Positions 2,255 to 52,500 of a stretch of 64,000 nt of DNA are shown one piece after another (the first letter of the stretch is position 1; each line of letters starts with the position of its first letter). Position numbers and translations under genes: made by a program. The notes under the pieces were generated by a model, which ran no database searches, had not been told where the DNA came from, and worked only from the letters and a program-made list of their open reading frames with translations. Origin of the DNA: Romanomermis culicivorax (taxonomy: Eukaryota; Nematoda; Enoplea; Mermithida; Mermithidae); assembly GCA_963922205.1 (NCBI GenBank), contig CAWUHX010000506.1, forward strand, positions 1-64,000. Reading direction: 5' to 3'.

Positions 2255-2460
2255 GTATTACTGCAGCTGTTGCACACTGCACACTACCCTATAGCGTTAT
2301 ATAATGATGAGTGTATATACAGTATGTTTGTCAGATTATCGATTACTGTAGCAAACAGATCAACTTGCTCGTCAAATTCCAAAATAGCTACAAGGAGCTA
2401 AAAATGCGTCAAACGTCAGCGACACCAGCTTGGGAGGCTTGGGCACGATCACACGACCCG

Positions 2461-2780
2461 CGGGAGGTCAAGGGGTAAGGCGCCGCACATTTCTTGCAAA
2501 TTGCTCTGTTTCTTGGAATCTTTTCAACAATTTGATTAAAATATTGACTACTAAAATGAGCGTTAAGTGCGGCACATTGTGACGGGCCAGGCCACATGCC
2601 CTGCGGGAGGTCAAGGGGAAAGGCGCCGCACATATTCTTGCAAATTGCACTGTTTATTGGAATCTTTTCAACAATTTTATTATAATATTGACTACTAAAA
2701 TGAGCGTTAATGGCGGCACATTGTGAGGGGCCAGGCCACATGCCCCGCGGGAGGTCAAGGGATAAGGCGCTGCGCATATT
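2461..2780 (-). repeat. 144-bp tandem units, left arm of foldback 1
   Basis: Two full units and a partial one. Unit landmarks are GGGAGGTCAAGGGG, TGCAAATTGC, TTTTCAACAATTT and ATTGACTACTAAAATGAGCG. They are in opposite orientation to the units at 4,740-5,200. Confidence 0.85.
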
Positions 2781-3880
2781 CTTGTCAAAATTTTTTATTT
2801 TTTTTATGTTTTTCTCGTATAATTTCTTGTTTTTTTTGGTTTTCTATATTTTTTTTCTTCTTATTTTTCGTGTTTTTTTAGTTAATTTTTTGGTTATCGT
2901 ATTTTTTTCGGTTTTATGTGTTTCCTTCCAAATTCTTCTGTTCTTTTGCTAGCTGTCTGTTTTTACTCATTTTTTTCTTTTTCTTTTAATTTTTTTGTTT
3001 TTTTTCCTTCATTTGTGTTTTATTTTTTCAACTGTTTTCGTTTTTTCAATAAAAAATGATAGTCCATGCTGACATTTTTGTTTTTTGTGCTTCACTTGCT
3101 TTCTGTTTTTTTGTTTTAATTGCTTTCTGTTTTTTGTTTCCTATGTTTTTTTCTTGAAAAAATTGCAGATTTTATTTTTCGTTCTTTTTGTTTGCTTTTC
3201 TTCCGTTTTTCTAGTTTGTTTTTTGTTGACTTCTATCATGTTTTGTGTGAAAATTATAGTTTATGATCATTTTTTGTTTCTTTTGTTTTTATTTTTTCAA
3301 AGTATTTTTGTTTTTTCAATAAAAAATTTTAGTTTATGCCGACATTTCTGGTGTGTTACCTGCTTTTCGCTTTTTTAAATTTTTTCTTATTTATTCTTTT
3401 TTGTGTTTTTTATTGTTCTTTTGTCAAGTTTTTTAGTGTTTTGGCTTGAAATTATAGTTTATGATTAAATTTTTTCTGTTTTTTGTGTTCTATTTTTTGT
3501 TCTCTTTTTTGTTGATTTTTTGTTTTTTTGATTGCAAAAATAGAATTTTTGGTTTTTTGTATTTTGTTTGTTTTTATGGCTTATTTTACGTCAAAAAAAT
3601 GTTTTTTTCGTAATTTTTTTTATCTGTTTTTTCGCTTTTTTGTAGTTTATTTCTACGTTTTTTAGTTTTCTGAAATTTTTTTCGGAAAAATTGCGCATTG
3701 TTATGAATTTTATGGTTTTTGTGCTGCACTTTCTTTTCGTTTGTATTTGTTTTCTGTTTTTATTTTCTTGAATTAAAAAAAATTTTTTTGTTGAAAGTTT
3801 TTTTTTATTTTTTTTATTTTTAATTTTTTTTAATTTCAATTTTTTTTCTTCTAGTGGTCGAATAAATTTCAATTTTCAGA
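2781..3880. repeat. T-rich inner left arm of foldback 1
   Basis: About 1.1 kb, strongly T-biased on the plus strand, with scattered ATGs giving low-complexity Phe-rich frames. The outer part pairs with the A-rich block on the right. Lysine/phenylalanine frames on both strands here are not genes. Confidence 0.8.
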
Positions 3881-3989
3881 TTTAATTTTGGATCAACGTC
3901 GAATTTTACGTTCAAAAATTGTGGAAAAATGTTCAATTGGTCAGCTTGCCGTGTGTTTTCCCAAAAATTACATAATTGTGTGACATCTT

Positions 3990-4735
3990 GAACTATGATT
4001 TTTCAATAAAAAAAAACAAAAAAACTTGACAACAAAAACCATATTTAAACCGACAGAAAAGACAAAAGCAAAAAAATAAATCAAAAAATGAAAAAACTTG
4101 ACAAAAAACAAAGTCAATAAAAGACAACAACAGAGAAACGCAATTTTCAATTAAAACCAATAAACTGAAAAAAACAAAAAAAAAATTTTAAAAAAATTAA
4201 TAAAAACAGACAGCAAGCAAAAGACAAAAATTTGAAAGAAAATATTTAAAAACTGAAAAAATAAATACATACGAGAAAGTAAAAAAAGTAATCAAAAAAA
4301 CATTAACTCAACAAAAATTCATAAACTGAAAAAAGATAAATTAAAATGAATAAACAAAAAATAACTAAACATTCAATAAAAAAACTGGAGAAAAAGCAGA
4401 TAAAAAAAGAAAAAAAATAAAAAATAAGTAAAAATGAAGAAAACAACAAAAAGGAAAAAATATATAAGAAATAAAAAACACAGGAATCGCGATTATTAAA
4501 ACTAAAAACCTAAGCTCAACAAAAAACAAAAAAAGAAAAAGAAAAAAATGAGTATAAAAACAGACAGCTAGCAAAAAAATAGAAGAATTTGGAAGAAAAC
4601 ACATAAACCGAGAAAAAACAAAAAATACAATTAAATAAGAAAAGCACGAGAAAATAAGAAGAAAAAACAAATATAAAAAACCAAAAAAACAAGAAATTAT
4701 AAGAAAAAAACATAAAAAATAAAAATTTTGCAAGA
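3990..4735. repeat. A-rich inner right arm of foldback 1
   Basis: A-biased on the plus strand and a diverged complement of the T-rich block. The match is clearest for 4,540-4,735 against about 2,785-2,990. Confidence 0.8.
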
Positions 4736-4739
4736 ATAT

Positions 4740-5200
4740 GTGTGGCGCCTTACCCCTTGACCTCCCACGGGGCATGTGGCCTAGTCCTTCACAATGTGTC
4801 GCCATTAACGCTCATTTTAGTAGTCAATATTTTAATCAAATTGTTGAAAAGATTCTAAGAAACAGCGCAATTTGCAAGAATATGTGCGGTGCCTTACCCC
4901 TTGACCTCCCGCAGGGCATGTGGCCTGGCCCGTCACAATGTGCCGCACTTAACACTCATTTTAGTAGTCAATATTTTAAACAAATTGTTGAAAAGATTCC
5001 AAGAAACAGAGCAATTTGCAAGAATATGTGCGGTGCCTTACCCCTTGACCTCCCGCGGGGCATGTGGCCTGGCCCGTCAGAATGTGCCGCACTTAACGCT
5101 CATTTTAGTAGTCAATATTTTAATCAAATTGTTGAAAAGATTCCAAGAAACAGAGCAATTTGCAAGAAATTGTGCGGCGCCTTACCCGTTGACCTCCTGC
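4740..5200 (+). repeat. 144-bp tandem units, right arm of foldback 1
   Basis: Unit starts (GCCTTACC) fall at 4,747, 4,891, 5,035 and 5,179, exactly 144 bp apart. Because 144 is a multiple of three, one frame stays open for 168 codons and repeats every 48 residues. I read this as a by-product of the unit length, not as a gene. Confidence 0.9.
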
Positions 5201-5545
5201 GGGTCGTGTGGTCGTGCCCAAGCCTCCCAAGCTGGTGTCCCTGACGTTTGACGCATTTTTAGCTCCTTGTAGCTATTTTGGAATTTGACGAGCAAGTTGA
5301 TCTTTTTGCTACAGTAATCGATAATCTGACAAACATACTGTATATACACTTATCATTATATAACGCTATAGAATAGTGTGCACCAGCTGCAGTAATACCG
5401 CTTAGTGAGTGGAACAACCAGACCCGACAAAATTTGATCATACAGTAACTCTCTAGCGCAAACGCGATAAACTTTTTAAAGTTACGACTAGCGGCTAATA
5501 TCACAATAAAATCACATAATTTCATGTTAGGAAAAATTGGGAATT

Positions 5546-33075: not shown

Positions 33076-34757
33076 AGCCCGGGACAATAGAGCACGGACA
33101 TTAGATCGCGGACATTAGAGCGCAGAGACATTAGAGCGCAGGACAATAGAGCTCGGGACAATAGAGCGCAAGGATAATAGAGCGCAAGGACAATAGAGCG
33201 CAGGACAATAGAGCGCGGACCTTAGAGCGTGGACATTATAGCGCGGACATTAGAGCGCAGGGACAATAGAGCGCAGGCACAATAGAGCACGGACATTAGA
33301 GCGCAGGACCATGCAGTGGCGGATGCAGGGAGTAGGGGCGACTGCGCCTGGTATCTCATGTTCCAAAAATAAAACGTTTCAAAATAATTTTTAAACACAA
33401 ATTATTAGAAATCTGCAAAACTTAATCAAATACTGCAGCCAAAATTTACTTTTTTCCAATTTTTTCTTTTTTCTTCTTCAATCTATTATCTATTTTCTCG
33501 CTAGTTGCCCCATTGTTTCGTTTTTTGAAAAGATTTAAAGAAAAAATAAGAAAAAAAGAAAAAATATATCAATGCAATTAATCTAACAAAAATATGAAAA
33601 TTGCAAAAAAAATTTCCGCGTCTCCCACGAAACAAATTTTTGCGTCGGTCACTGGGACAATAGAGCGCAGGACAACAACCCATAGGCGCAATAGAGCGCA
33701 GGATGATAGAGCATAGAAAAATCAGATCAGAGCAAAATAAAAAAACTGAAAATGAAATATTTTGAGAAGTAACTACATTTCAGCTCAAAAATGCTTTCTT
33801 CAAATTTTTTCGTGTCTCTAAAGAAGTTCAGGTCAAAGCACTTTTCTACTATGCAGTATTTTTCCCCATTTTTTGTTCTTTTTTTTCTTTTTCTTCTTTC
33901 ACTTTTACTTATTTTTTTCTTTTTTTATTTACCTTTTTTTCTCTTCGTATTCATTTTCTCGTGTTTTTCTCTTTCCTTTTTTATATCTCATTGTTCGTCT
34001 ACTTTCTCATTACTCATACTTTTTTGCGTTTTTTTGTTCAGCCGCTCACATGGAATTTACCTTTAATCCATAATCGCACACATATTTTTATTGATTTATT
34101 GCTTGCCAACCTTTGAACCTTTGAATAAAATGGTGTCATTTTGCTATTTTCGAATTCATCGTGAATTTATAATTTGCATTCAGAATCACACGGAGTTTTT
34201 TGTCAGCTTTTGAAAACTTTGTTCACTTCTGAAATAAAGCTGCTTGCACAGTACTCTTTTTTCATGTCCAAAAACAATTTTGAAATTCGCGTTCATTCAG
34301 ACCACGGAACGTTGGTTAATTTTTTTCGAACCAACAGATGCGCTCTAATGTCCCCGTGCTCTATTGTCTGTCCCTATTGTCCTGGGCTCTAATGTCCCTG
34401 CGCTCTACTGTCCTGCGCTCTAATGTCCCTGCGCTCTATTGTCCTGCGCTCTATTGTCCCTGCGCTCTATTGTCCGAGCTCTATTGTCCGCGCTCTATTG
34501 TCCTGCGCTATAATGTCCCTTCGCTCTATTGTCCTGCGCTCTAATGTACCTGCGCTCTATTGTCCTGCGCTCTACTGTCCTGCGCTCTAATGTCCGCGGC
34601 GCTCTATTGTCCTGCGCTATAATGTCCCTTCGCTCTATTGTCCTGCGCTCTAATGTACCTGCGCTCTATTGTCCTGTGCTCTAATGTCCGCGCTCTAATG
34701 TCCGCGCTCTAATGTCCGCGCTCTAATGTCCGCGCTCTATTGTCCCGCGCTCTAATG
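33076..34757. mobile_element. Foldback element 2 with 14-17 bp subrepeats
   Basis: The left arm (33,076-33,313 and 33,655-33,713) is a tandem array of GGACAWTAGAGCGC(A). The right arm (34,337-34,757) is the same unit in reverse orientation, about 26 copies (GCGCTCTATTGTCC and GCGCTCTAATGTCC variants). Between them lie A-rich (33,538-33,605) and T-rich (33,868-34,040) blocks that could pair. The architecture is that of foldback 1 with a different unit. No transposase seen. The left array is split by a 341-bp insertion. Confidence 0.8.
33314..33654. mobile_element. hAT-like MITE inserted in the foldback 2 array
   Basis: Begins CAGTGGCGGATGCA and ends with the complement of CAGTGACCGACGCA. The flanks GGACCATG (33,306-33,313) and GGACAATA (33,655-33,662) match at six of eight bases, fitting an 8-bp target duplication. 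CAGTG ends and 8-bp duplications are typical of hAT elements. The array unit resumes right after it, which proves an insertion. Confidence 0.65.
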
Positions 34758-34764
34758 TCCGGTC

Positions 34765-34882
34765 ACGCGTCAAAATAGGACGAGCTCCAAAGTGAGACGG
34801 GCGCCAAAGTGAGACGGACGCCAAAGTGAGATGGGCGCTAAAGTGGGACGGGCACCAAAGTGAGACGGACGCCAAGGTGAGA
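34765..34882 (+). repeat. 17-bp GGGCGCC array
   Basis: About six tandem copies of GGGCGCCAAAGTGAGAC and close variants, starting eight bases after foldback 2. The same unit builds the arms of foldback 3 at 50,861-52,168, and both arrays end in GACTGYACC. Confidence 0.85.
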
Positions 34883-35195
34883 CTGTACCCTATGGATACC
34901 TTACAATACGAATACTTTGCATGTGATTGATCATTTAAGATTATATTTAATCGAACTTGTGAAAGCATATAGTTGAGATCTGCAGATGTTTAGATATGCT
35001 AATTTAATTGTTTGATTTGAATGCCGACCTTCGGCAGCATCAATTTCTAAATGATATATTCTGGTCGAGATTTTTTACAAAATCAAACTTGACATGCAAA
35101 AAGAGAGAAAAATTCTATATACAGGGTCTCCGGTAAAAGTACGAAGTGCTAGCGCACTACTTCAACGATTTTTCGATATTCTATTTAAAATCTGA

Positions 35196-36512
35196 AGGCC
35201 CTGTCATACTTCACAGCGCGGCGGCGCTTGTCCCATTCATACTAAAAAGCGGCGCCGCGCGGTACCGCAGGGTGCCGCCTGGGAAGTATGAATAGATTTT
35301 TCTAATTTTTGCTCAAAATTCTACTCAAACGATATTTTCGAACAACTCATGTGTTATAAAGCTGTAATATATTGTTGCTATAACATATTGATGCATACTA
35401 TAACATCTGTGCATGCAGTTCAATCATTTTCTACATGAATTATGAATTATGAGACTTTTCAGATATCATTTCATCATGGCTCTTAATCATACATGCACAG
35501 GATAGAAATTCTGTGGGGATTCAGCCGATGGAAATTTTTTTTCGTTCGTTATAACGAAAAGAAAAGTCTTCTAACATCCAAGCAGCATGTTTTTCAACCT
35601 ATATTAGTCAAATATGTGAAATTATTTGCTTGAATAGCATTTTTAAAGTTTTAACGCTACTTCTTTGAATCAAGTGTGCTTCGTTAAGAGAGATCGTTTA
35701 ACTACTGTATCATTTTCATTCTTATGATGGCTTTCTCTTCTATTGATCATTTTTTTAGTTCGCCATCTTCTCAATTATTGCAGGGGGTCAGATATGCTGG
35801 AGGGTCAATACCCCCAAACCCGCTCCACGTGTATGTATGCTACATTCTGAAAAAATTCATCTTACATTTTGGAAAATCGATGATTGACAAATTTTGGCCA
35901 TGCACACAGAAATTTTCCAAGTGAAGTTTTTCCAGCAATTTTATCTCAGAGGTATTATTAATGAAGTTTTCAGAAACAGATTTTCAGAAGGATTGGAAAT
36001 ATGTATAGTTCGTTTTTATAAAATGTTTGTAAAGTGATAAATGGACAAAAAATGGGACACCCTCAAAGTCGTTTACACAAACCGTTTACTATAGGATTTT
36101 TGGCGTAAAAAATTCGGGAGGATTAGTTGAGCAGACTCAGGAAATTATAGAAATATAAAATGAAACTTGCTTTCCACTTTTTTATTTACAAGCATTTTCA
36201 GAAAGGAGACTATAGGTTGTGTTGTGATTATATAATTTACAATCGAGATATGAATGTGGAAAAATTATTAATATGCTAAGTAGGTGTAAACACGTTTCCA
36301 CGGCCTGATGTTGTCTTAGCAATAAGCCCAGTGCAATTAGCAGCTCCAAAAACGATAAAAAACAAGAATGCTAGCAAATTTTGCGAGAAAGTTTTTATTC
36401 AGAGAGCAAAATCCGAAAGTAAAAAAGCGTCGCCGTGCGGTAGCGTATGACAAGTATGACAAGGCCCCGCGCGGCACCGCGCGGCGCCTCGCGGTGAAGT
36501 ATGACAGGGTCT
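35196..36512. mobile_element. Harbinger-like non-autonomous element, copy 2
   Basis: 1,317 bp. Left end AGGCCCTGTCATACTTC, right end complement AGACCCTGTCATACTTC, flanked by TGA (left) and TAA (right), one base from a TAA duplication. The inner CGCG blocks are longer than in copy 1. The bodies align in order, for example CGTTATAACGAA, TCAAATATG, GTTTACACAAA and TTACAATCGAGATATGAATG. Confidence 0.8.
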
Positions 36513-38036
36513 TAACTATTCCATCTTTATTTTCATGTTGAAGTAATTTTTTTTCATATATCCAGTGAGAACTTTTGTTAGAAATAACCCTTATTATAAC
36601 ATCATGTGACGTAAGATTGAAACATGCTCGCCAGAAACCCAGTCATTAAGGTTCCTACTGAAATGTTACAAATCATTCAAAAACTGTAAGCTATCCGTGT
36701 ACATTACTGAAATCGACGATGACATTTCTGCTGTCAAGTGCGTCTTAAGCAAATCGAATTGAAGTTATTCCATATCTGTTTTTATTGGTTAGTAACTCGT
36801 TTGTAAACTATTGTTGTTTCTACCAAATGTTATATTTCTGTATGTAACGTTACTGAAAAAGATGGCGGTTAAAATATTCAAATTTTGAATATATGATGTT
36901 TCTCGATTTTCGTCATTAAACTTCGAAATACTTCTGGTTTATCTTTTCTTGTTTTTTAGCGTTAGAATTTATTGTCTTTATTGTTAATACTGTTTTCTTC
37001 TTTTGAAAAATCCTGTATTTTTCAATTATTCTTTTTTCCAGTTTTTTACTCATAGACTCACAGCTTTTCATTCTTGTTTTTATTTTTTCGTTCAATTTTC
37101 CTTTTACACTCAATAATTTTTTGCTCGTTGACATGACTTTTCTTTTGTTGTTCCCATTCAATTTTTCATCGATCTATTTTTCTTTATTTCTTCTTCTTTT
37201 CATCCATCACATTTTTTGGTCCTTAATAGGCTTTGCTTTTTGCAACAATTTCTTGCGCTCTTTTTTCTTCGTTTCTTCATTGTCTTGTGTTGTTATCGAT
37301 TTACTTCTGCACACGTTTTTTATTCGTTTTTATTTGTTGATACTACACCTGATCTCTAATAGTGAGTACGCAGGCGGATTAAGCAATATATAATTTACTG
37401 AGAATATATATTTTCAACGTGAATGTATTCCAACATGCAGCCAATTGCACATCGATCGATTGGTCTAATCTATATCTACTCACAAATGTATCGATTTTTT
37501 GTCAAGTGATGGACGAACGTTTGCTAGAGACCTGCTCTTCCACATATTTTTCTTGTTGCCGATTTTATACTTCCGAACAAACTTACTTCTAATTGTTTCT
37601 TGAAGATCAGCCCTATAACACATTTCGACCCGAAATTTTCTACCTCGAAAAACACTGCTCATCATTCTCTAACGATTACAGTATATGTTTTCCGCGTATT
37701 TACGCTTACATGGTTATTACTAAGCAACAATGCGTTCGGGGAACTTTCCCCGGGCGTCCAAACGTCCCACGTTCCTATCCGATCCCGAAAAACCTTCTAC
37801 TTAATTACACGTGTTCATTTTTTGCTTGTTTATTTTCGCCGCTTTCACATTGATTTTTGGACAATCAAATTTTCGAGCAACATTACTGACCCTCGATTCT
37901 TCTTCTATTTTCCCTTTTCTATGCTTGATTAGCTTAGCTCTAAGCTAATATTCGTCTAATTACAATCTCTCTTCGTTCCTTATTTTTTTTAAATCAAGAA
38001 GATTTTCCGTCTTATAGAATCTAAAGAATTTTCCAG
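36513..38036. other. Intergenic stretch upstream of Ly-6 gene A
   Basis: No confident coding exon. A near-perfect palindrome CGGGGAACTTTCCCCG lies at about 37,737-37,752 in a GC-richer patch. A 110-codon frame over 37,600-37,932 contains a hydrophobic run but no supported splice join, so it is left uncalled. Confidence 0.4.
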
Positions 38037-38042
38037 AAGCTG

Positions 38043-41000
38043 ATGATAGCCGGCGCGTCCTACTGTAACATTTTCTTTTCAATTTTAACTATTAATAATA
38101 TTATTAGCGAATCGATTATGGCGTTGAGCAGCCATTTGACCAAGTTCATATCGTTCATTGTGGCTAATGTGACCGATTACGGGGACCACAAGGCTATGAT
38201 TCCGTTGCCAAACAGGGATCCGCCAGGTGTTGTGAATCTCCCTTGCATCAACGTTATGTATATATGAAAGTCAGTCGAACGTCTACAACGTTTGGAGAGT
38301 GAAAAATCTATCTTACTGACGTCTGAGTCCTGAAATTTGTGGGATGTCGGCAGACTTGCAAGATCAGGTCGACTACATATCATTATTCTCAAAACGAAGA
38401 TTTGTTTTTTCATATCAAAGTCCTCTTAACGTGATCTTCATATGAATGTAGCTCCGACGACTGCAAGATACGTTCGTACCGTGAAAAACGTGTTATTTTG
38501 ACCTCTGACATATCCAGGACTAACCAAAAAACCCTTTCATCGTAGTCCAGAGTTTATGGAGTGTCGAAAATGAGTCACAAGATCAATTTTCATCCTCACT
38601 CATATATCAGAAAGGAAAAATCACATTTTTATGTCGCGTCAGGGTGCTTTTCATATAAAAACAGGTCCAAAGCCTGTCAGATATGTTTGGAAAGTTGGAA
38701 GTATCTTGCTGACGTCAGTCATATCCTGGTCAACCGCAAGGCACATTTACCATATTCCAAAAGTTTGTAAAACGTTGGAAAGGACTTCCAAGATCAATTT
38801 CTTGCACGTGTCATTAATTTTAAAAAATGCCTTGTCATTCGTTAAGGTTATCTTTATGTGGAGACGGGTTCAACGTCTGAAAAATATTTTTGGGCAGTGA
38901 AAAATGTATATCTTTCTGACATCAAGCGTATCCAAGGCCAGCCAACATGATGAAATTCGGGACTGCCAGAGAAGGGCCGCAGTAGGCTTGTGTCATCCTC
39001 ATGTCATTATTCCCAAAAATGAAAATCGTATGGCTTTCACATGCTTTTTCATACGAAAGCAGGCCAAAAGTCTGTATGGTATGTTTGAACAGGGGAAAAC
39101 GTATTTTGCTGACGTCAGGCCAACCATAAGACACATATACCGGTCCGAGAGTTTGTGGAATATCAGAAAAGAATCGCAAGATAATGTGTCATCCTGCACT
39201 CTCTATGGTCAAAAAATAAAATTTTCGTTTTCATGTCGAAATATGAACAGAAAAACTCCATTCATTGCGAAATGCACTAAAATCTCCTGTGAATTCGAAT
39301 CTCTGTATTCAAGCTTTGTGGTCAGTGTATTTACGTTTACGTCACATTCTGCGTTCTGTGGAGCTCTGTTAAGCTCTGTGAAACGCTGTAGTTTCTTCCT
39401 CATCGTTTACGTAACATACGTTGCGCGAAATCGAGAGTGGGTGTCGAAATTCTTGAATCAAGAGCTATTTTTCTAGAATTATTGCGCAGTCTAACTGACA
39501 CTTCAGACTCGAAGTGGAGAAAGTCAGCCATGTTTTAGATGACACGGTCTCCTGTAGCATTTGGTTCGCAGAAGTCTGGTACATTTATTTGAAAATGAGA
39601 CTCGGAATATAGAAAAATGCCTTCCCATATGAACAACTTTTGGTGCACATGGACATTTCTCTCGCACAGTTCATTTGCGAAAAAAACTTTTTGTGAGCGC
39701 AGGTTGCTTTTTCTCTGTTGGAACATAATTCTGCGTTGGAAGTCTCACTTGGAAAACGCGTTTCTAAACCTACACTCTCCAACGTCACGAAAGGAGAAAA
39801 AGATTCGAGAAGGGTTGCCTCGAAAAAGAATAAAATTTTCCTGGTTCTGTCATCCGTTTTGTAGCTCAAGGTGTATTATGCGGATTTTTCACAAGTTTTC
39901 TCCTTCCGGCATCGTGTAATGAGCTTTTTTCATCCTTCATACGCCGGATATCTGACCTTCCCTGTTGCATCAGTGCTTTAAAAGGTGTTTCGAGAACTTT
40001 CGAGTCCGATGGGGTGGTAAATATTAAGCTTTTATCTTGACAACAGCCGCATGTTCCTGGAAAAACCATGCAGAAAGATTACAAGCTAGATCACTTTTAC
40101 AGAAGTTCTGTGGAGCGTCCTTGAACTGATCGAAAAGAGTCTAGATTATGCATAACATGATCAAAAAAGGTTAAATCACTTACTGAGGTTTCTAAACTTT
40201 TAATTGGAAAGAATTTTAACATGGTTAGATCGATTCTTTGAGCTACATGCTCACAAAGGTGTTGTTAAGTCTCCAATACGATGAGAAGACCACTTGGATG
40301 TGAATATTGATCATTTGGAAGGTCAACATGTCCCTTCTCGTAGTCAAAGTTCCATTTGGAATCTTTGGCCATTCACATTCTATAATTCGGTATTCAGACG
40401 TTGTACTTTGTGTACTGTAGGTGACAGTAAGAAAAACTTTGAATGAATTGAACATACTTCATGGGGTTAACATTTCGTCCACTTTTTCAAGAATATACTC
40501 AATGAAAAAAAATCAGAAATTTTGAAAACGATTATAGTTAGCACTTTGATAGTATGTTGGCATCGAAATTCATGTTAAATTCATTCGCGACATCCTATTG
40601 TAAACATTCTTTTTTCCGCAGGCAAAAACGTCCAATGCTACAGTTGCATGTCGCCCCTATTCCAAGCTCGGGTCCGCGTTTCCTTAACGTCCGACGAATC
40701 GGAATCCGGTTCGTCGGATTACGGCGGTGGTGGCGGCGACGGCAGTGGTCGTCGGAAAGGCGAGACGGAAAACGCCGGAGCCGGTGGCGCCGCCCATTTC
40801 AACGTTTGGGATACGAACGGACGCCATTTTTTTCTAAAGCCTGAAAATTTCACCAAATTTTGCAATACGGATCGGTTCCATCCGTTATACGTTCAAAGCC
40901 GTTTTTGCCGAGATACGTGCGTGTGGTTGACTACAGAAGCGGGGATCATGGGTGAGGAGGTTGTAGCATCCGTGACGGTTTGAGTTATAGTAACTATTCT

Positions 41001-44000
41001 TCTGAGCCCAGTTGATAGGTCACTATCATTTGATTCCTCAGCCGCTGATTCATAACCACTACTACATGGATAAGCCGATGTTTATTTTTCTTATGCCTAT
41101 TTATAGAAAACACAAGGGCCGTTTCATTCTTTTTTCCTCCTACCGTAGGCCAGTTTAATGGTGGTTTTTCTGCCTCATCGCTAGCAGCCCGATCTTTAAA
41201 CTTCCATGGTTTGACCCTACCTCGAAGGAAAATATTCATTTTTAATCCATAGTCTCAAAAAACCATACCCTTGACCACTGCAAACCACGAATCCACAGGT
41301 CACTACTCAAACTTAAATTTGAAAAACTGTGATCACTGCTTATAGTTCATATTATGACCGAACGTTTTTTATGTGCTATGACATAGTTTATATCGGAGTT
41401 TCCGCCGTGGAACGTATTTTCTCCAGATCAAAACATAACCGCACTATTGTACTGAATTCGGCAATTCAGTTTTATGAGTGAGTGCAAGTTAATCTGATTG
41501 TGTTGTGTTTGTGGTTCTGAATGAGTTGAAACTGTTGATTATTTTGAAACAATTGACAACGAAGAAGACCCTTTCTACACACTTGCCATTGAGAGAATGC
41601 CTACAGATATCACACACTGAAGTGCAGCTATGTGATGAAATATGATGAAGTGATGTTCTTTAATGAAGTAAGCTATGTGAAGCTGTTGAATTAGAATTGC
41701 TCTTTTGAGTGTTGCACAGGCCTCTGCTAATCTTAATTATTGATTGTTACTGTAGCAGATGCATTATACAGGGTGGGCAAAAAAAGGCGATCGGTACTGA
41801 CTTTCATAGCTTTCAATTGAGTGAAGCTTTTTTATTAGGTCCGTATGTCAGAAGGTGGAGTAGCCTACTCCATGGAGTAAACGGTGGATTATTTCCTGGA
41901 TTATCTCCAGTTGGCATTCCAGAAAGAGGAGTAAAGAGAAGACTAGAATAGATTAAATCGGTATGCCAGAAAGCGGGGTAGGCTAATTCATGGATTAAAC
42001 GGCGGAGTAATCAGTGGATTATCTTTTTTCGGTATGCCAGAAAAAAGAGTAGAGAAAACATCGGAGTAAAAAAAACGTATTTTCTTGTCTTTTTCTAAAC
42101 CTGCATCGGGCAGGTGTATTCAGTGGAGTAAGACTGATTTATAGCTCTATAACTATGGAAGTTGTTGATTTCATCGAGTTTTTGGGAGATTTGGACGAAG
42201 AAAACAAGCTTGCGAACAAAATTCCACGAGTTCTTTTTCGAAGATCAGATCCATTCGAAATGCATAGTGATTTTGACTTCCAACTGCGATATCGATTTAA
42301 TAAAGCAGCAGTGCGTGAATTGATAAGAATTTTTCATAATGAATTAGAAAATTCAACAAATTCAAATTGAACAATTCAAAATTCTGAATTTTCTCAGAAG
42401 TCTTTCTCAATGCTGACCCATACCAATTTTTTTGTCCTATTAACTGAACTGTCCGTCTTTTTATTTTTGGTAACATTCTTTCGACTTTTGACATATTTGA
42501 TTAGAAAATTAATTTGAAGCTGCGAAAAATTATCACCTCGTTTTTTATCGCTCATTTCACAAGTCTCAAATTATGTAGATTAGCAAAAAAGCAATGCAAT
42601 GAATGCAGAAAACCCCGATAAAGTTGACAAAGGGTGGCCTTGCAGAGAAAAGTAATAAAATCTATAAACCCACGATGAACAGCAAAATTCCATTGTGAAA
42701 AATGTGACGATTTTTTTCTTGTCTTTTTGCCACTTCTCCACTGTCTAATCAATGGATTACGAATTCGGCCACTACTCCATTTTTTGGAATGCCGAAAAAG
42801 AAAATCCGTGGAGTAGAATAATCCGGGGAGTAGCTAGTCGGTGGATCAGCATGGAGTGGCTACTCCTCGGATTAGCCTACTTCGTGGATTATTCTACTCA
42901 ACCTTCTGGCATACGGGCCAATGCGGTTCGCTGCCGTCGATAAATAAAACATATGGCATAAAAATTGCAAAGTTTCAGCCAGATCGCTCCAATATTGACT
43001 GACTAGAATCAAAAATACTAAACGCCAATTTTTTACAAATAAGCAAAAATTGATAAAAATCAACATGTTTAACAACATAAAAATTAAAATACATACAATC
43101 ATAAGCACCATAACAGCTGGAAAAAGTCATTTTAGTGTGTCCCACTTTCTGTTTCACCAATAATTTTGATCGTTTTTCGAACTTGTCAATGACAGAATTG
43201 ATTTTGTTTTGAACTCGCTTTTTTCCAGTTTCAAAAAAATGCTCTTGATTTTAGCGAAATTTTCCCCTTATTGAAACAAGAAACTGATGAATTTAAAGTA
43301 CGAGTAAATTTCAAATATGGATGATTTTTAGAGTATACTTTGTGTAAACAACTTCACAAAACTCTTTTTTCACATAGGACAACTTTTACTTTGCTTTCAT
43401 AACTTTTACTTTTCGAAAAATGACCTTTTTTACAAAATTTCTGTTTGTACAGAAACTATAAATGCTGGGAGCATAAAGTTTGGCCTATAAATCAATTCTG
43501 TCATTGACCAGATCAAAAAAAAGATTGAAATTATTGGTGAAACAGAAAATAGAACACATTAAAACCGCTCTCTTGTAGTTTCTAGCTGTTATATGGTTAT
43601 GATTGGATGTATTGTACTTTTCTCTTGTAAAACATGTTGATTTTGTCAATTTTTCAAAATTTATTTGCAAAAAATCGTTTAGTATTTTTATTTCTAGTCA
43701 ATCAATATTTGAGTAATCTAACTGAAACTTTGCCGTTTTGATGCCAGATGTTTTATCTATCGACTGCAGAGAACCGCATTAAAAAAGCTTCACCCGTTTG
43801 AAAGCTATGGAAGCCAGTACCGGTCGTCTTTTTTTACTCACCCTGTATAAAAAAGGCAAGCAAAGGATTCTGATGCAGCAATCCGCATTAAAAAAGCTTC
43901 CATTCGAAGGTTATGAAAGTCAGCACCGGTCGCCTTTTTTGGCTCATCCTGTATTATAATCTTAAGCATGTGTTTGCAGACGTCATCTGTGTGTTCTAAG

Positions 44001-45133
44001 CAATCCGAATTCACAGTTTTGTGTTACAGTTGCAATGATAAATATGGAAAGACTGACATGTACATTACATATTTCAACAATTCTGCAATGTAGGTTTATA
44101 TCTCCTTTGACCGAGATGGTCAGTTTCTGGGGAAAATGTTGAGTTTTCCTGATATTATCATGTTGAATCTTCCCGATATTATCGTGTTGGCTCCATCAGC
44201 TAAGCGGAACAAAAGTTTACCTAAATGTAATGACTTACACTGATTTGAGGTCATAGTAAACTATACTGTAAAATAAAATTTCAGATTGTCAGGATATTAT
44301 CGACTACCAGATTCTTAAGGTTTGGAACTTCTGAATTGAAACTCAAATGGGATAACAAGGGCACGCGCATTTCTCAAAATTATGTAGAAGTGATAATTTT
44401 TAATCATTCATTGGACGATTTACTTGATCTCCAAAAGGCTGTAGTGATGAGCGCGTTCCAAATTGGATCCTGGCTTATCAAAAACATTCTAACAATCAGA
44501 AACTATAGTCTGTTTTTTATAAAATGCTTCCAAATAGAAAAGTGATACAAATCAGTAGTGTCGTCAAATCGTTTACATAGGGCTATTCTTCTTGTAAAAT
44601 TTTTCACTCAAAAAATTGTTAAAGGTTAGGTCAGTATGATCACAAATTTCCAATCATAAATGGTATATGTTTTATCAGAAAATCGTGAAAATCTGAAATA
44701 CTACTTGCTTTCCACGTTAGTTAATTAGAAGCATTTCAAGAAAAACAGACTATATCTACCTACTTCATTCTACCATTTTTTCGGCGAGATCTAACGCACA
44801 CATTAAATGATATTTCTAGGATCATCATTGAGCAAAGTTCACATGCGGGGTTGCTTGGAAGATTTGATCGACACGAATCAAAACGTTACCAAATATCTCA
44901 AATATAGGACATTTTGCGCCACCATATTCTACAAGGACTTGTTTTTGTGGAATCCGTCGCGCCAACACCATTTCAAAGATAACGATCAGTTGCCCAACCA
45001 GAGGATTCAAATTTGCTCTTGCCACAAGAAAATGTGCAACGCGGCTCACGAATCAGGTACGGCGATCAGGAGAACGTGGTCGGCGATTTTAGCGACAGTT
45101 TGGTGTTTATATTTCGTGGCTAAAGCTATGTGA
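38043..45133 (+). CDS. Ly-6/uPAR-type GPI-anchored protein, ODR-2/HOT-like (gene A, 3 exons)
   Basis: Predicted secreted, GPI-anchored three-finger (Ly-6) protein of the kind that in C. elegans includes ODR-2 and HOT proteins, which act in neurons. The assignment is from remembered family features. Exons: 38,043-38,226 (acceptor TTTTCCAG ends at 38,036, six bases before the ATG, as for a trans-splice site); 40,622-40,951; 44,820-45,133. Donors are G|GTGTTG and G|GTGAGG; acceptors are CCGCAG and TTCTAG. Every junction is phase 1, giving 828 nt or 275 residues. CYSCMSP begins at residue 67. Later come KPENFTKFC, FCRDTCVWL, VHMRGCLEDL and the terminal ICSCHKKMCNA, where CN is the Ly-6 hallmark. 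A hydrophobic tail (WSAILATVWCLYF) closes the protein as a GPI signal. A Gly/Ser-rich insert occupies about residues 80-118. The N-terminal exon is the weakest part: its hydrophobic stretch is short for a signal peptide. Confidence 0.75.
38268..39250. repeat. Degenerate TGACGTCA repeat in Ly-6 A intron 1
   Basis: Four or so diverged units of about 200-260 bp, each with GTGAAAAAT or similar, CTTRCTGACGTCWG, GTTTGTGGARTRTC, GCAAGATCA and TCATATSAAAG landmarks (near 38,310, 38,490, 38,700, 38,920 and 39,105). It begins about 40 bp after the first donor. Related in style to the GT14 intron 1 array. Confidence 0.55.
41838..42919. mobile_element. Nested PIF/Harbinger-like element
   Basis: 1,082 bp, ends GGTCCGTATGTCAGAAGG and (complement) GGCCCGTATGCCAGAAGG. 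The arms carry GGAGTAG/GGATTA-rich repeats. It interrupts the left arm of the outer element: AAGCTTTTTT before it and TGCGGTTC after it are adjacent in the intact right arm (complement of GAACCGCATTAAAAAAGCTT at about 43,774). It contains a truncated transposase-like frame. Confidence 0.8.
42155..42370 (+). pseudogene. Truncated Harbinger transposase N-terminal fragment
   Basis: 71 codons. The segment IPRVLFRRSDPFEMHSDFDF followed by QLRYRFNKAAVREL resembles the start of PIF/Harbinger (HARBI1-type) transposases, where an Arg-rich segment and a 'd.eF..RFR.sk' helix precede the catalytic domain. The frame ends after about 70 residues with no DDE residues, so it cannot be active. It sits inside the nested element with Harbinger-type ends, which supports the call. 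Confidence 0.6.
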
Positions 45134-46579
45134 TACCCTGTTGCCGTTGGTATTTTGTGGAGGAGCTCAATCCGTCACGTTAAATTTTTTGGTAAAGAGA
45201 TCAGATCTGGCGGCCTGATGATTTTTTCTTGGCCATGTGATACCCTGCTGACGCTTGTGTTTGGAGCAGGAACTCAGTCAGCCACATATTGAATATCGTG
45301 CTAAAATGGAGTGAATCTGGTTCGGCTACTCTCCAATAACCCTGGTGAACGTGGACTCATCAGATTTGACAGCTTTTTCTTCATTGCTTGAGCTAGATGA
45401 CTTCCTAGTCATGTGAAAAAATAGATGACAAGACAAATATTTTATGTATTGCCGTTAAGCTTAGATTTGACCTGCAGCTCCATTCTCTCGATATGTTTCG
45501 TGTATAAATTAAGTTGCATCTGAGATCCACTGTGACAACAATGGTATATCATATACAGTTAAGCTACAGCAGGCTGGATGCTTCTCTTCCATGAAACTGG
45601 TTTCTTGTCATCTTTTAGACCATGTGACATACTGCAACCATTGGTGCTTTGAGGAAGAAGTGAACCTCGTTTGGCTAATCTCCAAGATCTTCTGAAAATG
45701 AAAGTAGATCAGATTTGACAGAGTGGTTTATTTTCCTTTTGACGAAAACCATCTGGCAGCCTCTTGTCGTTAGTGTTTTCTAGAATGAGTTCTATCAGCT
45801 TGTTAAAATCGAATGGAACTGGTCTGTCAACTTTCTAAGATTCTGTGAAAGTGAAAGCAGAACATATTTTGGTCGCTATAATATATTCTCAAGAAGTTGG
45901 AAACATGAAAAAAATATTTGAATATGACGTTGACATCCAATGCCGTAAAGAAACCTCAACTCCCGATCTCCAAAGAAATTTTTTACGCCATCTTTAATTA
46001 CTGTAGCGTGTATTTTTGTAAAGTATGTGACTATGTGATAAACGAATGAAAATCACAATAAATCTATTTCGCACGGTTCGCTGTAGATATTACGAGTTTT
46101 TTGTCGTTGAACAGAATGGATTTTCTAGGCTTCATATCTTCATTTGCATGAACTAAGTATACACACACCTAAACTGCAACAGATGGGGTCTCTTTGCATA
46201 GTCCTTTTAATAATGATGAAAAAAGTACCAACATTCTGGAACAGGTTTTAATTGAAAAGAGATCCCTAAATTATATGGGAGGGGAATGTTTCGGAAAAAG
46301 TGTATAGCGCAGCATAAGAAAATATTGTAGCTATGTCTTCAAAAGTTGCGAGCGAATTTGACGTCAGCAAGATGTAAATTTATCACTATTTAATCTTTTG
46401 AAGTCAGGAATGATCACTGAAAAAGAACTGTACTTGATGATTGCAAGACGAGTTTCAAGAAATTAATTTATGCATGACTAGTAAGTATACTGCGCTAAAC
46501 CGTAGTCCTACCACATTTTTCTAACGAATGTTTCTGACATCTTACAAGCGTCAGATTCGATTCATTTACAACACATCTT
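45134..46579. other. Intergenic region between convergent Ly-6 genes
   Basis: No gene. From about 45,120 to 45,870 there are diverged repeats with CATGTGATACCCTG, CAGATTTGACAG and CTCCAAKAWYYT words, about 100-250 bp apart. The rest shows nothing recognisable apart from single copies of TGACGTCAGCAAGATG (46,361) and an octamer TACTGTAG (46,001). Confidence 0.45.
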
Positions 46580-47534
46580 TCAGAATGTAAAATACAAGAC
46601 ATAAAAAACAAGACATGTGCACACTAGTTTCGGAAATTTAAATGAAGAAGATTGATTGTTACAGTGAGATAACCTGCATACACAAAAACGCGCAATTTGA
46701 TCGATAGGATGGATTTTTTCAAAATTATCCATTCTGAAATTATGATTATTGATTAATTCGAAAAATTCGTCCACTTTATCGCCCGAATGTCGATCTTTCG
46801 ACCGAATAATTGGATAGTTATTTTTCTTCTTTTTCTTATCAAAAGTCGGGCTGGACATGAAAAGGTCCAATAAACGAATGGTTGAACAAATTTTCGTGCC
46901 ATCATCAGTTATCGGATCAACAAAATAGTTCAACAACTCGAAATTCGGCATCAAAAGATCTTCTGTACATCCGCGAATTTCCATTTTATAAGGCTGGCCT
47001 TGAAAAATACAAAGTCATAAAATCTGGTTCGACGTTAGCAACCTCAGTTCACCAACTCTTTGCTAATACTTTGTATAAGCAATATACACTATATCTTTAT
47101 GAGTCGTAAATGTGAGTCGTATTTCAAATAGTACAGTATCTCCGTATATACTACAGTACTACAGTATCTTTGTACAAGTATATACTTTGCATGACTACAG
47201 TATCTTGCTGGCGTAATGCCTAAATTTAAATTTCCTGAAGCTCCAAGTATTTCCAAGAACCTATATTTTACTCTACCTAGAACTACGGCCTCCGTTTGCA
47301 TAGAAAAGCATCTCTGATGGCACGGTAAAGCCGGTACTTTGGCCCCGCTGCCGAATTCCAGTCGTCGACAGTGCTTGGTCAATTGATAAGTTTTACTGTA
47401 GAAATACCGAAACTTTTTTGACCATAATTTCAAAAAGTGCTGGTCGAAATGGTTCGTACCTAAAATATCGAATGGGGCACTTTGAGGCTGATGAAGTTTG
47501 ACGAATGAAATGCAGCTGTAGCAAACGGGCGAAT
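46580..47534 (-). CDS. Ly-6/uPAR-type GPI-anchored protein, ODR-2/HOT-like (gene B, first exon not found)
   Basis: Paralogue of gene A on the opposite strand. Supported exons: 47,277-47,534 (acceptor TTTTTCCAG, donor CTAG|GTAGAG) and 46,580-46,998 (acceptor TTTTTCAAG). The junction is phase 1, and the upstream boundary is also phase 1, so a signal-peptide exon must lie further upstream but was not recognised. Landmarks: CYSCIS just after the first boundary, LPCHQRCFSM, MEIRGCTEDLL (aligned with HMRGCLEDL of gene A), ICSTIR, FCVCRLSHCNNQ and a hydrophobic tail (VCTCLVFYVLYFTF) fitting a GPI signal. A lysine run (DKKKKKNN) and about 50 extra residues separate the last cysteines. Visible length is 224 residues. 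Expected location is the outer face of the plasma membrane. Confidence 0.72.
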
Positions 47535-49511
47535 CTGGAAAAAGAGGAAAAATAATTTTAGAGTAGAACACGACGTCAGCAAGCAAGTTTTTTGTAATTT
47601 TCGTTGGAGTCTTTCTTCATTTTTATCTTCAGTTTGTATTTCGTATACTTTCATTGTTTTCTCATATACTTTCCTGTGTCTGTTCTTTGTATGTTTTTTA
47701 TTTTTGTTTTTGTTTTACTTGTTTTTGGACATTATTTTTTTCTTCTTCATTTTTCTTCTTGTTTGCATATTGTTTTGTCGGAGCTCCGTGTATTGTTTTC
47801 TTGCGTGTGTAGTGTTTTACCATTTTTCATAGTTTCCCACTTTACTTTGCTTTTTCGTTCTAGTATTTTTGTGTGTAGAAGTCAATAGCCTGGACTACTG
47901 TTAAGAAAGTATGTAATCAATACATCTGTAACGTATTACCAAGTGCGCACCAGCCGAGCTGCAGCTTAAGCTGTAGCGTAACTCTATATGTTATGCCACT
48001 GCCATTAAGCTGCAGCTCAAGTCTAGCTTAATCATGCACAAAAAACATATCAAGAAAGTTAAGCTGCAGCTGAGCAGTAGCTTAACTCTATATGTTATAA
48101 TATTGTCGTTAAGGTGAAGCTCAACTACAGTTTAACTTTCCCGATCTGCAGCTTAACGGCAATGGTATAACATATAGAGTTAAGCTACAGCTTAAGCTGC
48201 TCTTTGATGACACAGGCCCCAGGATTTTTATATCTTAGTGCTGATCGAAAAAATTTCATTGGCGTTGTAGATTCCAATTCAAACTAATTTCATAGATAAG
48301 GTTCAACATTCTGCAGAAATTTAAAAGATAGATATGGAATGTGATGACCTATTTGGAATTTTTGACAGTAGTAATACTGCAGATGAATGAAAGATCAGAA
48401 AAGCTTGATATTGATCAACATATATTTACCTCGGATTTGTGCACCGTTTTCCTGTTTAGGTCGTGTATCTTTCGTAACGTCGAATGTCATGTTGGCCAAC
48501 ATCAACGATACAAATTTCGTCAGGTGTATTTGCATAATGATTAAATGGCGTCGATCTCGTTCACATAAAAATTAAGCGCATCAATAGCCAAGCCGGGGCT
48601 CATGATTTTCTATAGCCTATTGTGTAGATAAAAATTATCATCAATTCTTGAAAATTGCCGCACTAAAAGATGCGGGTTGCTAGGGGTTTTGGAATTTTCA
48701 AACAGCTTGTCTCAATTTTTCTGCATCCATTTTAGTACCGTGTCAAAATGTGAGGCTCGAGGGAAAATGGCGACTATAAATGTACATAAATTACTTACAG
48801 TTTAGTATTTCCGGCCCTTAACTCTTCTTTTGTCAGAGTTTGGAGAGAGGCGAAAAGAAAAGAAAAGTTTGAACAGTTGAAGAAAAAGAGAGCAGAGGGA
48901 AGTTCTGCTGTGAAGAATAGTGGAAAAATGTACTACTTGAAAATCGTTATATTACAGTAACCGAAACCGTCGTGGGATGCTGCCGCAAAAACACTAGGCA
49001 CCTCAAGAAACATGGTCCCCCAGTGTTAATTTCTAAATCATAACGTTGTATTCTATAACTCGAAGTAATCTGAGGCCTTTTTTACACTGAAATTTCTACG
49101 AGATGATTGTTTTTCAAATAAATAATAGTATATCGAACTTGGTTCTGACAACTTGTCTGCCGCACTGGCTGCGGAAATTTTCATTTTTCACTGCAGATAT
49201 TCCAATTACGATGTAAACGTAATTAGCATAAAATGAAACAGATTTTCAAATGTACTATAAAATGTATGTTTTCAAAATTTACTCCTGGAGACTGGTCTCG
49301 AGGAATTGTTGAATGGAGATCTTTGAATTTAATACTGAAGCATATTGGTAGTTAGCGTCACTCAAAGCGATGATTCAGTACAAAGTCAATCAACAGTAAG
49401 TGACATGTCTGAAATTTTACTCAGATTCTGGAGATGAGATCAAATCTACCAAAATCAAGATGATCGAATAACATTGCATTCATCAGTATTTTCAATTCCT
49501 ACTGTATCTAA
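47535..49511. other. Stretch between gene B exon and the receptor gene
   Basis: Should contain the missing first exon of gene B (minus strand); none could be supported. It holds a T-rich run (47,590-47,870) whose 94-codon frame is low-complexity, and the palindromic element at 47,950-48,215. Confidence 0.4.
47950..48215. mobile_element. Palindromic CTGCAGCTTAA element
   Basis: Three copies of a roughly 60-bp segment with CAGCTTAAGCTGTAGC and AACTCTATATGTTAT: near 47,962 and 48,070 in one orientation and near 48,150-48,210 inverted. The outer pair form about 65-bp inverted ends. Related to 9,455-9,602 and a fragment at about 45,540-45,575. Confidence 0.7.
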
Positions 49512-52500
49512 TCAAGTTACTGCTAAATTGCTAGGTGAAGAAGATATAACTTGAATGACGCGATTACGACACAGTACAGCGTTTAGCAAAGTGCGCCTAA
49601 ATTGATCGATATAAAAGACATATATCACAAAATTGATAAAAGCGTCGATCATCATCAAATTGACGAAATAGGGCATAATTTTGACGTCGCGATTTTCTTG
49701 AAAGAGGCCGTTGATCAATTTCGAATAAGCGACAAGAAAAGTGATCGATTGGGCTATGGTATTGACCATGAGAGCTTTCAAAATTTTGCGATTCATTTGT
49801 TGTCTAGTTTCGCTTAGATTGTTTTGCGCTCTCGGTTTTTGTGGATTCTAGAGATGAAAAACATGTTTTCTGATACACAGGATACAAAATACATACAATG
49901 AGATCAGATAACGATTTTTAAATCCTTGTTTGTTCATGATTGCTTAGTTATAAATAGAATAAATAGACTATAGTAGTAGTAGTAGTAATAGCAACTTCGG
50001 CGCATTTGGTTTTTGTCTTTTTAAAAAAAACAATAATGGAACAATGCTCTGGGTTCAAAAAAAAGGTTCTTCTACTGAGGAAGTTTTTATTGAAAAAATC
50101 CAGTTAGGCCTATTATTTACATTCATTTTGAGAAAAACAGAGTATGTAGAAATTATTGTATCAAAAGCAGTTATTGTATCAGAAGTGGCAGTGTTAGAGT
50201 CATCAAAAGATCCGTTTCATGCACATCAACTTACTTGATAGTTAACTTTATCCGCCATTGTACTTATAGTCGAGATTTGAATCTGACGAACTGTCTTAAT
50301 CTGTTGAACTGCCGTCGCGGCAACCTTATGCGCTCTATAAATCAACTTAATCGCCACCATCAAATATAAAACGATCGAAATCAAACTGAACGCCATCAAT
50401 TTGCAAACCATAAAATAGAAGAAGAAATCCCCTTCGACCAATACGAAAACGCAAACGGGCAATCTGGAGCCGGTCGTATCAAAATAACTCGAGCCGAAAA
50501 TCACCAATTCGACGACCCATACTAAGCCGACCAACCGTCGTTTATACGATTTGGAACGATTTTTATAGGCGATCGGGAATACTGTAGCTACGAAACGATC
50601 GATCGTAATAACTAAAGTGAAAGAATTGGCGGTGCTGAGGAATAGACTTTGATGGCCAATGTATAAGAAACATCTAAAGAAATAGTGTTGGTCACCATTC
50701 TGCCAAAGTAGAATGGATATGCAAATGAGGCTCATGGAAGTGTTTTGATAAGAGCTGACTTGAGCATGTACCAGTGAAGTTGCTCCGGCCAGAAAAAAGT
50801 ACCGGGTAGTTTGGAGGAAGAATAAATTTCCAGCAGAAAAGCGGATTGTGTCGCAACTTGGCGCCCGTCTCACTTTGGCGCCCGTCCTACTTTGGCGCCT
50901 TGTCTCACTTTCGCGCCCGTCTTACTTTGGCGCCTAGTATGTGTGATTTTACCTATGCCAAGTTTACGAGCGGTTCTAAATTTTACATTTTGCATTATGG
51001 GATAAAAAATCCACTATACTTTCCTTTACGAAAATTATGTACTCGTACCTTATAGTAAACTGGTGTTTCTTTGTGCTAATGATCTTTATGTTAATTTAAA
51101 TCATAAAGTCAACAGTACGCAGTGTGACAACAGTATGAAAATTTTACATTAGAGAGACGACGTGGATAGTAAAAAGTCATTTTGTTAATCCTTTTTCTTT
51201 ATTTTCTGTATAATATTTCTTCGCTCTGTTTCCCTTTTATTTTCTCCCCTGCTTCAGTTTCTACCTTTTTAGTCTCATCATTTCGAGTCACACAATTCTA
51301 TGTCCAACTGCTTTTCTGTTTCATTTTCATATTGTGTTGTTTCTGTTAGTTTTCCTACTTTTATTTCCATACGTTTCTTTTCCGTTTCACTTTATCCACC
51401 GTTTGCCTTATTATCTTATACTCGTATTCAGTTCTCATTTTTTTCCCAGTTGCCTGTTTTTATATTCTTTTTTTCCCGTTCTCTATTCTTTTCTTCTACT
51501 TTTGCTTATCTTTTGATTTTCTTTTACTCGCTCATTTTCCGCTCTACTCCAACTTTTCAAAATATTTGTTTCATGTTTCCGCTGCTTGTTAACACTTTTT
51601 CCGTACGTTTCAATTTTCAGTTTTCGTTTTTCTTTTTTTGCATTTCAGTTTCTGTTTTGTACTTTTTTCTTTCTATATAGTTTCTTTTCCCTCTCTGTTT
51701 TCCTTCATCTTCTCCTTTTTTCAAGAACTAGCACGTTTGGGGCCTGGTCGTTCGCGTTACTGTAATGTTTATCTCATGGTCTGCTAATTTCTGAGCCATT
51801 TTCAATTTGTTCCGAATCTTTATGTTGCATTACGATCTATAGCAGAGACACATGATATTTCAGGGCCACTGCAATGCCATTCCGACCGATCAATGATCTT
51901 GAAAATTTGGTAATCGCTTCTTACTTGAATAAATGATCAACATGAATGCTGGAAAGCAGACTAAAACGGGGCGCCAAATTGAGACGAGCGCCAAAGTAAG
52001 ATGGGCACCAAGTTAAGACATCCAAGAAAAGTCATTACTAAGCAATGGGCGCCAAAGTAAGACGGGCGCCAAGTTAAGACAACAGTCTCATTTTGGAGCC
52101 CACATTGGGCGCCAAAGTGAGACGGGCGCCGAAGTGAGATGGGCGCCAAAGTTAGACTGCACCGAAAAGCGTGGCTGACATTAGACTGCAGAATATGTTC
52201 TTCCAGGTTATTCTAGAAAAATTCACATTGACGTTTTCACTGCGACTATGCATTTGAGATGATTTCACCAGAGTCCAGTTTCGACTCATCGGAAGACAGG
52301 AAGTTCAGCCTGAAAGTGCTACCCTAGAATAACCAGAGTAGATCTGAGATTTCATTCTTTTGAGTTGGACAGGAAAATAGCTTTTTCTATCATATTTCGC
52401 TATTTCATCCATGTTCGAAATCACAGACTGGTGGTAGATCTTAAGCAAAGGCCAGTGATTTTTATGATTTTTCATGAATGATTTTCGAACGGATTGCTGA

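Follow-up and report, generated by a model that had tools for sequence, protein, structure and literature searches.

Foldback transposons with internally repeated ends have been described in nematodes and insects, and excerpts of three reports serve here as background. Tm1 was described as a Mutator/Foldback family of the Phantom subclass in root-knot nematodes, with terminal inverted repeats (TIRs) made of ~14-bp tandem units in variable number and with unequal 7-bp end motifs (PMC3169594). In most copies the two ends of an element were reported to carry different terminal motifs; target-site duplications (TSDs) measured 8–10 bp, most often 9 bp, short non-autonomous copies were numerous, and the transposase was composed of FLYWCH plus a Mutator-like element (MULE) domain. 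According to the discussion of that report, foldback families need not be kin and the layout probably arose repeatedly; the foldback elements FB (Drosophila), FARE (Arabidopsis) and Tnr8 (rice) were named. Tetris, a foldback of Drosophila virilis, has ~220-bp tandem units and TSDs of 8–10 bp (PMC4079207). Galileo, a P-superfamily foldback of Drosophila, has long, internally repeated TIRs, and the DNA-binding domain of its transposase binds sites within the TIR tandem repeats (PMC3688188); that 2013 paper, in the excerpt used, still regarded a role of tandem repeats as transposase binding sites as untested for Foldback and Phantom elements. Here, three foldbacks, representing families F1, F2 and F3, are described from a 64,000-nucleotide stretch (the window) of the nematode Romanomermis culicivorax, contig CAWUHX010000506.1 (C506) of assembly GCA_963922205.1.

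The three foldbacks are very probably non-autonomous foldback transposons, of which F2 and F3 would be derivatives of Phantom-type MULEs, and F1 may belong to any of several superfamilies. They carried long terminal inverted repeats with tandem subrepeats in variable number and occurred as dispersed copies with flanking TSDs, which are the features of the foldback class. Tandem Repeats Finder, combined with a repeat search of positions 32000–53500 for F2 and F3, located the facing arrays around a core that the initial annotation had placed there, and confirmed the unit lengths of 144, ~15 and 17 bp, respectively (Table 1). The F1 element extended beyond its arrays to true ends of its own, AGTATTAC...GTAATACC in the window copy and GGTATTAC in most copies.

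DNA searches of one assembly (359 Mb) gave at least 39 distinct places for F1, at least 40 for F2 and at least about 40 for F3, the window included, and these counts are lower bounds. The F3 places partly resembled one duplicated region, since C330 and the window had a common flank, and like scores at two places on C387 and one on C204 also suggested a duplicated region. The terminal motifs of F2 and F3 were fixed and abundant. With up to two mismatches, the B and A ends of F2 were found 462 and 451 times (reversed-pattern controls, 0 and 2), and the alpha and beta ends of F3 295 and 317 times (controls, 0 and 0).

The flanks of the sampled copies carried TSDs. For F1, only n = 8 gave a peak among 16 two-ended copies, with a mean flank identity of 0.70 and six exact duplications, compared with 0.29 and 0/240 in mismatched pairs; the second right end of copy L011 was left out of this count. 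For F2, only n = 9 gave a peak, with an identity of 0.74 and three exact duplications in eight copies, compared with 0.26 and 0/56 in mismatched pairs. Two of these eight, the window copy (which has no A end) and L008, were scored at inner positions where there was no duplication, and the flanks of L008 agreed at 6/9 positions when its ends were read by eye. For F3, the count used 13 of 19 end pairs; six were excluded for an end score below 16/20 or because both ends were of one type, and a looser count had kept 8/10 pairs. At n = 8 the identity was 0.69 with 2/13 exact, compared with 0.27 and 0/156 in mismatched pairs, and a 7-bp duplication with the beta end moved by one base was about equally good (0.73 and four exact, compared with 0.28 and 0/156). 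One excluded pair, L045/L046, showed a 9-base repeat by eye. The initial annotation had supposed that the foldbacks were mobilised, and the dispersed copies and the TSDs in the sampled copies bear this out for all three families. The TSD length of ~9 bp (8–10) expected of Mutator/Phantom elements was found for F2 and F3, although this length is common to other superfamilies too.

The orientation and pairing of the ends were examined among 100 listed ends of each type. Those of F2, all exact matches, came from totals of 462 B and 451 A ends; those of F3, exact or with one mismatch, came from totals of 295 alpha and 317 beta ends. Among the F2 ends listed, 25 of 27 neighbouring pairs within 10 kb pointed inward, one outward and one the same way, and every inward pair joined A with B (25/25); within 3 kb, 23/24 pairs were inward and A was joined with B in 23/23 of them. 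Among the F3 ends listed, 15 pairs lay within 10 kb, 13 inward and two outward; 12 of the 13 inward pairs were alpha–beta, and the remaining beta–beta pair, at 9.4 kb, may represent two elements. Within 3 kb, 11/12 F3 pairs were inward and 11/11 of these were alpha–beta. The initial annotation had proposed to compare inverted with same-orientation array pairs, and among the F2 and F3 ends listed the inverted pairs far outnumbered the same-way pairs.

These pairings bear directly on the suggestion that template switching or fork reversal turns tandem arrays into inverted ones at their original site. The F1 arms were 90–93% complementary across ~540 bp, part of the F1 core also paired when judged by eye, and the arms differed in array length, all of which speaks for such a process. 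However, fold-back copying would give the same end twice, whereas the F2 and F3 pairs carried one of each of two distinct terminal motifs, and the copies were dispersed and bore TSDs. Template switching was therefore disfavoured and is hardly credible as the origin of these pairs.

The MULE transposases, the only transposase family searched for, gave 122 profile matches in the assembly, of which 35 loci were inspected: six with 8 kb per side, eight with 1.5 kb per side, 20 from one side only, over 501 bp, and one on C78. Facing short-unit arrays flanked the MULE gene at four of the 15 loci read on both sides, C60, C52, C102 and C78, with units of 14, 15, 18 and 17 bp, respectively. The C60 gene read FLYWCH plus MULE, with FLYWCH above the cut-off; FLYWCH was also found above the cut-off upstream at C52, C98 and C26, and the C56 frame contained MULE alone. 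Direct repeats of 12 and 10 bases lay at the outer ends of the C60 and C102 elements, respectively. One-sided repeats of 14–21-bp units were present at C56, C98, C26:1226506, C473 and C378, and those of C473 and C378 may not be transposon arms. The one-sided 501-bp windows held a short-unit array in five of 20 matches (C16, C90, C117, C24 and C217), and four of these arrays had the unit of C56 and C52; no array was seen in the other 15, a weak negative with only one side viewed. For rough comparison, a short-unit array was present in 14 of 200 501-bp pieces drawn at random from the window, and 10 of these 14 came from F2 and F3 themselves. The MULE genes at C447, C26:1039140 and C34:1090213 had plain long TIRs with no unit arrays within them, and neither long TIRs nor unit arrays were seen at C43, C221 and C129. 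At the right end of the C102 element (L074 ~1245–1270), CCTACCC, identical to the seven letters of the Tm1 motif A2, lay beside the flank repeat, a match noticed post hoc.

Since arrays of other 14–18-bp units face each other across some MULE genes of this genome, F2 and F3 were most likely mobilised by Phantom-type MULE transposases. A foldback of this kind would be a cut-and-paste DNA transposon in which long terminal inverted repeats, their inner part being a variable-length array of short units, surround a core. A transposase encoded elsewhere in the genome would bind the unit of its own family at many sites per end and cut at the end motif. Slippage or unequal exchange would shift the number of units, and arm lengths would vary as a consequence. 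For F2 and F3, Phantom-type MULEs would act in trans, with the units as their putative binding sites.

The initial annotation had also raised a single enzyme that recognises structure more than sequence, so that one transposase would move all three families through their foldback form. The layout is indeed common to the three families, no family-specific transposase was found, and the units of F2 and F3 were no more alike than shuffled sequences, their score being reached by 183/200 shuffles with one version of the F2 unit and by 176/200 with another. The annotation had described the units as unrelated; this held for F2 against F3 and for F2 against F1 (chance level, 150/300 shuffles), whereas the comparison of F3 with F1 was marginal (19/300). 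A common origin of the short units was rejected on the F2–F3 comparison. The sequence ACAAT was shared by four of seven short units (24/2000 shuffles reached this), and a 6-mer was common to three of seven (56/2000 shuffles; 876/2000 at k = 4); the units had been picked after looking, so nothing was built on these matches.

The evidence on the ends and the genes nevertheless stands against one structure-reading enzyme. Recognition by structure alone is unneeded. Each of the three families had its own conserved end motifs, and the TSDs were 8, 9 and mostly 8 bp for F1, F2 and F3, respectively, with F1 and F2 thus differing in length. Furthermore, different MULE genes of the genome accompanied different units, and three sampled MULEs had plain long TIRs without unit arrays. 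We consider a structure-only enzyme very improbable; both this explanation and template switching were rejected on the TSDs and the end pairing. Different units in one layout would then mean several transposon lineages rather than one enzyme that reads structure.

The annotation had further described the cores as pyrimidine/purine-rich and had put forward their composition as a test of the layout. Compared with background stretches of the window, this was true of F1 and F3, whose cores were unusually rich in T or A, but not of F2. The T or A bias of the two halves of the F1 core was reached by 0/1061 and 0/1099 stretches and the T bias of the F3 core by 0/1075, whereas 56/1075 stretches reached the bias of the F2 core.

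Several observations weigh against this reading of F1–F3, including the assignment of F2 and F3 to Phantom-type MULEs. None of the three families yielded a transposase, although no copy was searched over its whole length for one. F1, F2 or F3 units did not form the ends of any of the 35 MULE loci, 20 of which were viewed in a single 501-bp window. At C102 and C78, the only matches were to RYYR-CCHC and lay below the cut-off (24.6 and 16.1 compared with 27 bits), and C52 had no flanking direct repeat of at least 7 bases in the stretch compared. The F3 TSD was variable in length, in that nine of the 13 pairs had 8 bp, two had 9 bp, one had 7 bp and one had none, and the window copy of F2 was without its A-type terminal motif and hence without a TSD. 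In addition, the ends of F1 matched one another, so that the one-of-each-end test applies to F2 and F3 only. Of a 6.06-kb A-to-B interval of F2 (C151:284000–290060), 3 kb were read, and none of the frames there looked by eye like a transposase. Duplications of 8 bp, as in F3 and F1, also fit hAT, P or Merlin elements.

An alternative is that all three are foldbacks but that F2 and F3 belong to a non-Mutator superfamily (hAT, P or Merlin) with a convergent layout. The example of Galileo shows that foldbacks can belong to a P-type transposase (PMC3688188, in excerpt), and in the MULE sample, drawn from the one family searched, no locus ended in F2 or F3 units. However, the 9-bp TSDs and unequal end motifs of F2 were as in Tm1, and four MULE loci of the same genome had facing short-unit arrays. 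A non-Mutator origin of F2 and F3 is therefore regarded as unlikely, and their derivation from Phantom-type MULEs is preferred.

At the 35 MULE loci, no MULE transposase lay between F1 ends, and the F1, F2 and F3 motifs appeared as stray single matches only. A MULE on C78 lay between F3 ends 7.8 kb apart; it was flanked by facing arrays of its own, built from a different 17-bp unit (L101 209–4801). It was therefore read as a nested insertion in an F3 copy and rejected as an autonomous F3 element. In the C151 interval, where the A and B ends of F2 pointed inward 6.1 kb apart, an inner frame had a WSSWSDC stretch, which we take to be a thrombospondin-like motif; the interval is either a gene capture or two broken copies. 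Inward A and B ends of F2 also lay 9.3 kb apart at C191:260079–269407.

The coexistence of several MULE lineages with different units within one genome is the part that deserves a second look, and it hints at a separate short repeat for each of several transposase lineages here. We tentatively put forward, as a possibility somewhat short of an even chance, a radiation of Phantom-like MULE lineages in one genome, each with its own facing unit of 14–18 bp and its own FLYWCH or FLYWCH-like domain. The repeated units would offer the domain many binding sites and would change in step with it; two such lineages would have given rise to F2 and F3 as non-autonomous products. Four MULE loci with four different facing units offer natural domain–unit pairs for testing the repeats as binding sites, and such pairing would explain foldbacks of one layout without common sequence.

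The coordinates of the three foldbacks are collected in Table 1. The ungapped pieces of the F2 arms were at most 93% complementary.

Table 1. Positions of the foldback elements, their arrays and their target-site duplications in the window
Feature	Position	Strand	Description
F1 left target-site duplication GCTTAGCG	2246..2253	+	7/8 identical to right copy
F1 foldback	2254..5399	.	~190 bp terminal inverted part, then 144-bp units, then T-rich/A-rich core
F1 left array	2450..2789		144-bp units
F1 right array	4727..5211		144-bp units, inverted
F1 right target-site duplication GCTTAGTG	5400..5407	+	
F2 left arm	33076..33309	+	14–15-bp units GGACA(T/A)TAGAGCGC(A); outer A-type terminal motif missing in window copy
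F2 left array	33082..33309		14–15-bp units
F2 core	33310..34338	.	Includes short unit stretch ~33655–33716
F2 right arm	34339..34767	-	Terminates in B-type terminus GTCCGGTCACG
F2 right array	34339..34760		14–15-bp units, inverted
Single F3-family arm	34768..34889	.	17-bp units, inverted GGTACAG-type end; adjoins F2 B end
Array of single F3-family arm	34779..34883		17-bp units; assigned to F3 by the inverted GGTACAG-type motif that terminates it at 34889
F3 left target-site duplication GAAAAGCG	50836..50843	+	
F3 left arm	50844..50936	+	Alpha terminus GATTGTGTCGCAACTT, then 17-bp units
F3 left array	50858..50935		17-bp units
F3 T-rich core	50937..51968	.	T 0.45
F3 right arm	51969..52163	-	Beta terminus (GGTGCAGTC, inverted); same end in near-identical C330 copy
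F3 right array	51969..52157		17-bp units, inverted, in three stretches
F3 right target-site duplication GAAAAGCG	52164..52171	+	Exact match to left copy

Elsewhere in the window, another inverted-repeat pair was present at 41763–43957, with outer arms that started ATTATACAGG(G/A)TG and finished in the inverse, and with a 118-bp tandem repeat within; it resembles a mariner-type miniature inverted-repeat transposable element. Inverted-repeat arms of 58 bp with a spacing of 124 bp lay at 47961–48200, and a 32-bp stretch at 45539 was related to them. Eight open frames were scanned with profiles, and the matches included Core-2/I-Branching (two frames), a seven-transmembrane (7TM) Srsx chemoreceptor, a Ly-6-related match below the cut-off and one retroelement polyprotein; three of the eight had no match. 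The long open frame at 59416–62619 contained aspartyl protease, reverse transcriptase and RNase H and was assigned to a retroelement of the long terminal repeat type.

When compared with described systems, F1–F3 add new families to a known kind of transposon, the printed literature having been searched without their unit sequences. The initial annotation had regarded them as the best candidate for an undescribed system; however, this layout has been published for Tm1, with units of ~14 bp, 7-bp motifs that differ between the two ends and TSDs of 9 bp (PMC3169594, in excerpt). F2 and F3 resemble Tm1 in the nematode host, the short-unit arrays, the two terminal motifs and the TSD size, and the C60 element resembles it in its FLYWCH plus MULE transposase. 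They differ from Tm1 in the unit sequences and in that several units coexist here in one genome; F2 also has ~450 ends of each type, compared with 61 Tm1 elements in two species according to the same excerpt. The Tm1 unit CGATTCAGTATCGC and ends CGGTTAA / CCTACCC differed by eye from those of F2 and F3, and the Tm1 transposase is described as FLYWCH-MULE whereas F2 and F3 are as yet without a tied transposase. By analogy, F2 and F3 are thus elements that would work like Tm1 but are not Tm1 by sequence. FB, FARE and Tnr8 were likened to F1–F3 as foldback elements by name only.

The nearest layout to F1 was that of Tetris, which likewise has an outer flanking domain followed by tandem units in the TIR and for which, in the excerpt used, no autonomous copy was found (PMC4079207); the two differ in unit length (~220 compared with 144 bp) and host. 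Galileo differs from F1–F3 in having a P-type THAP transposase, as far as described in its excerpted report, and the binding of its tandem repeats by that transposase provides, by analogy, the model proposed here for the units of F1–F3.

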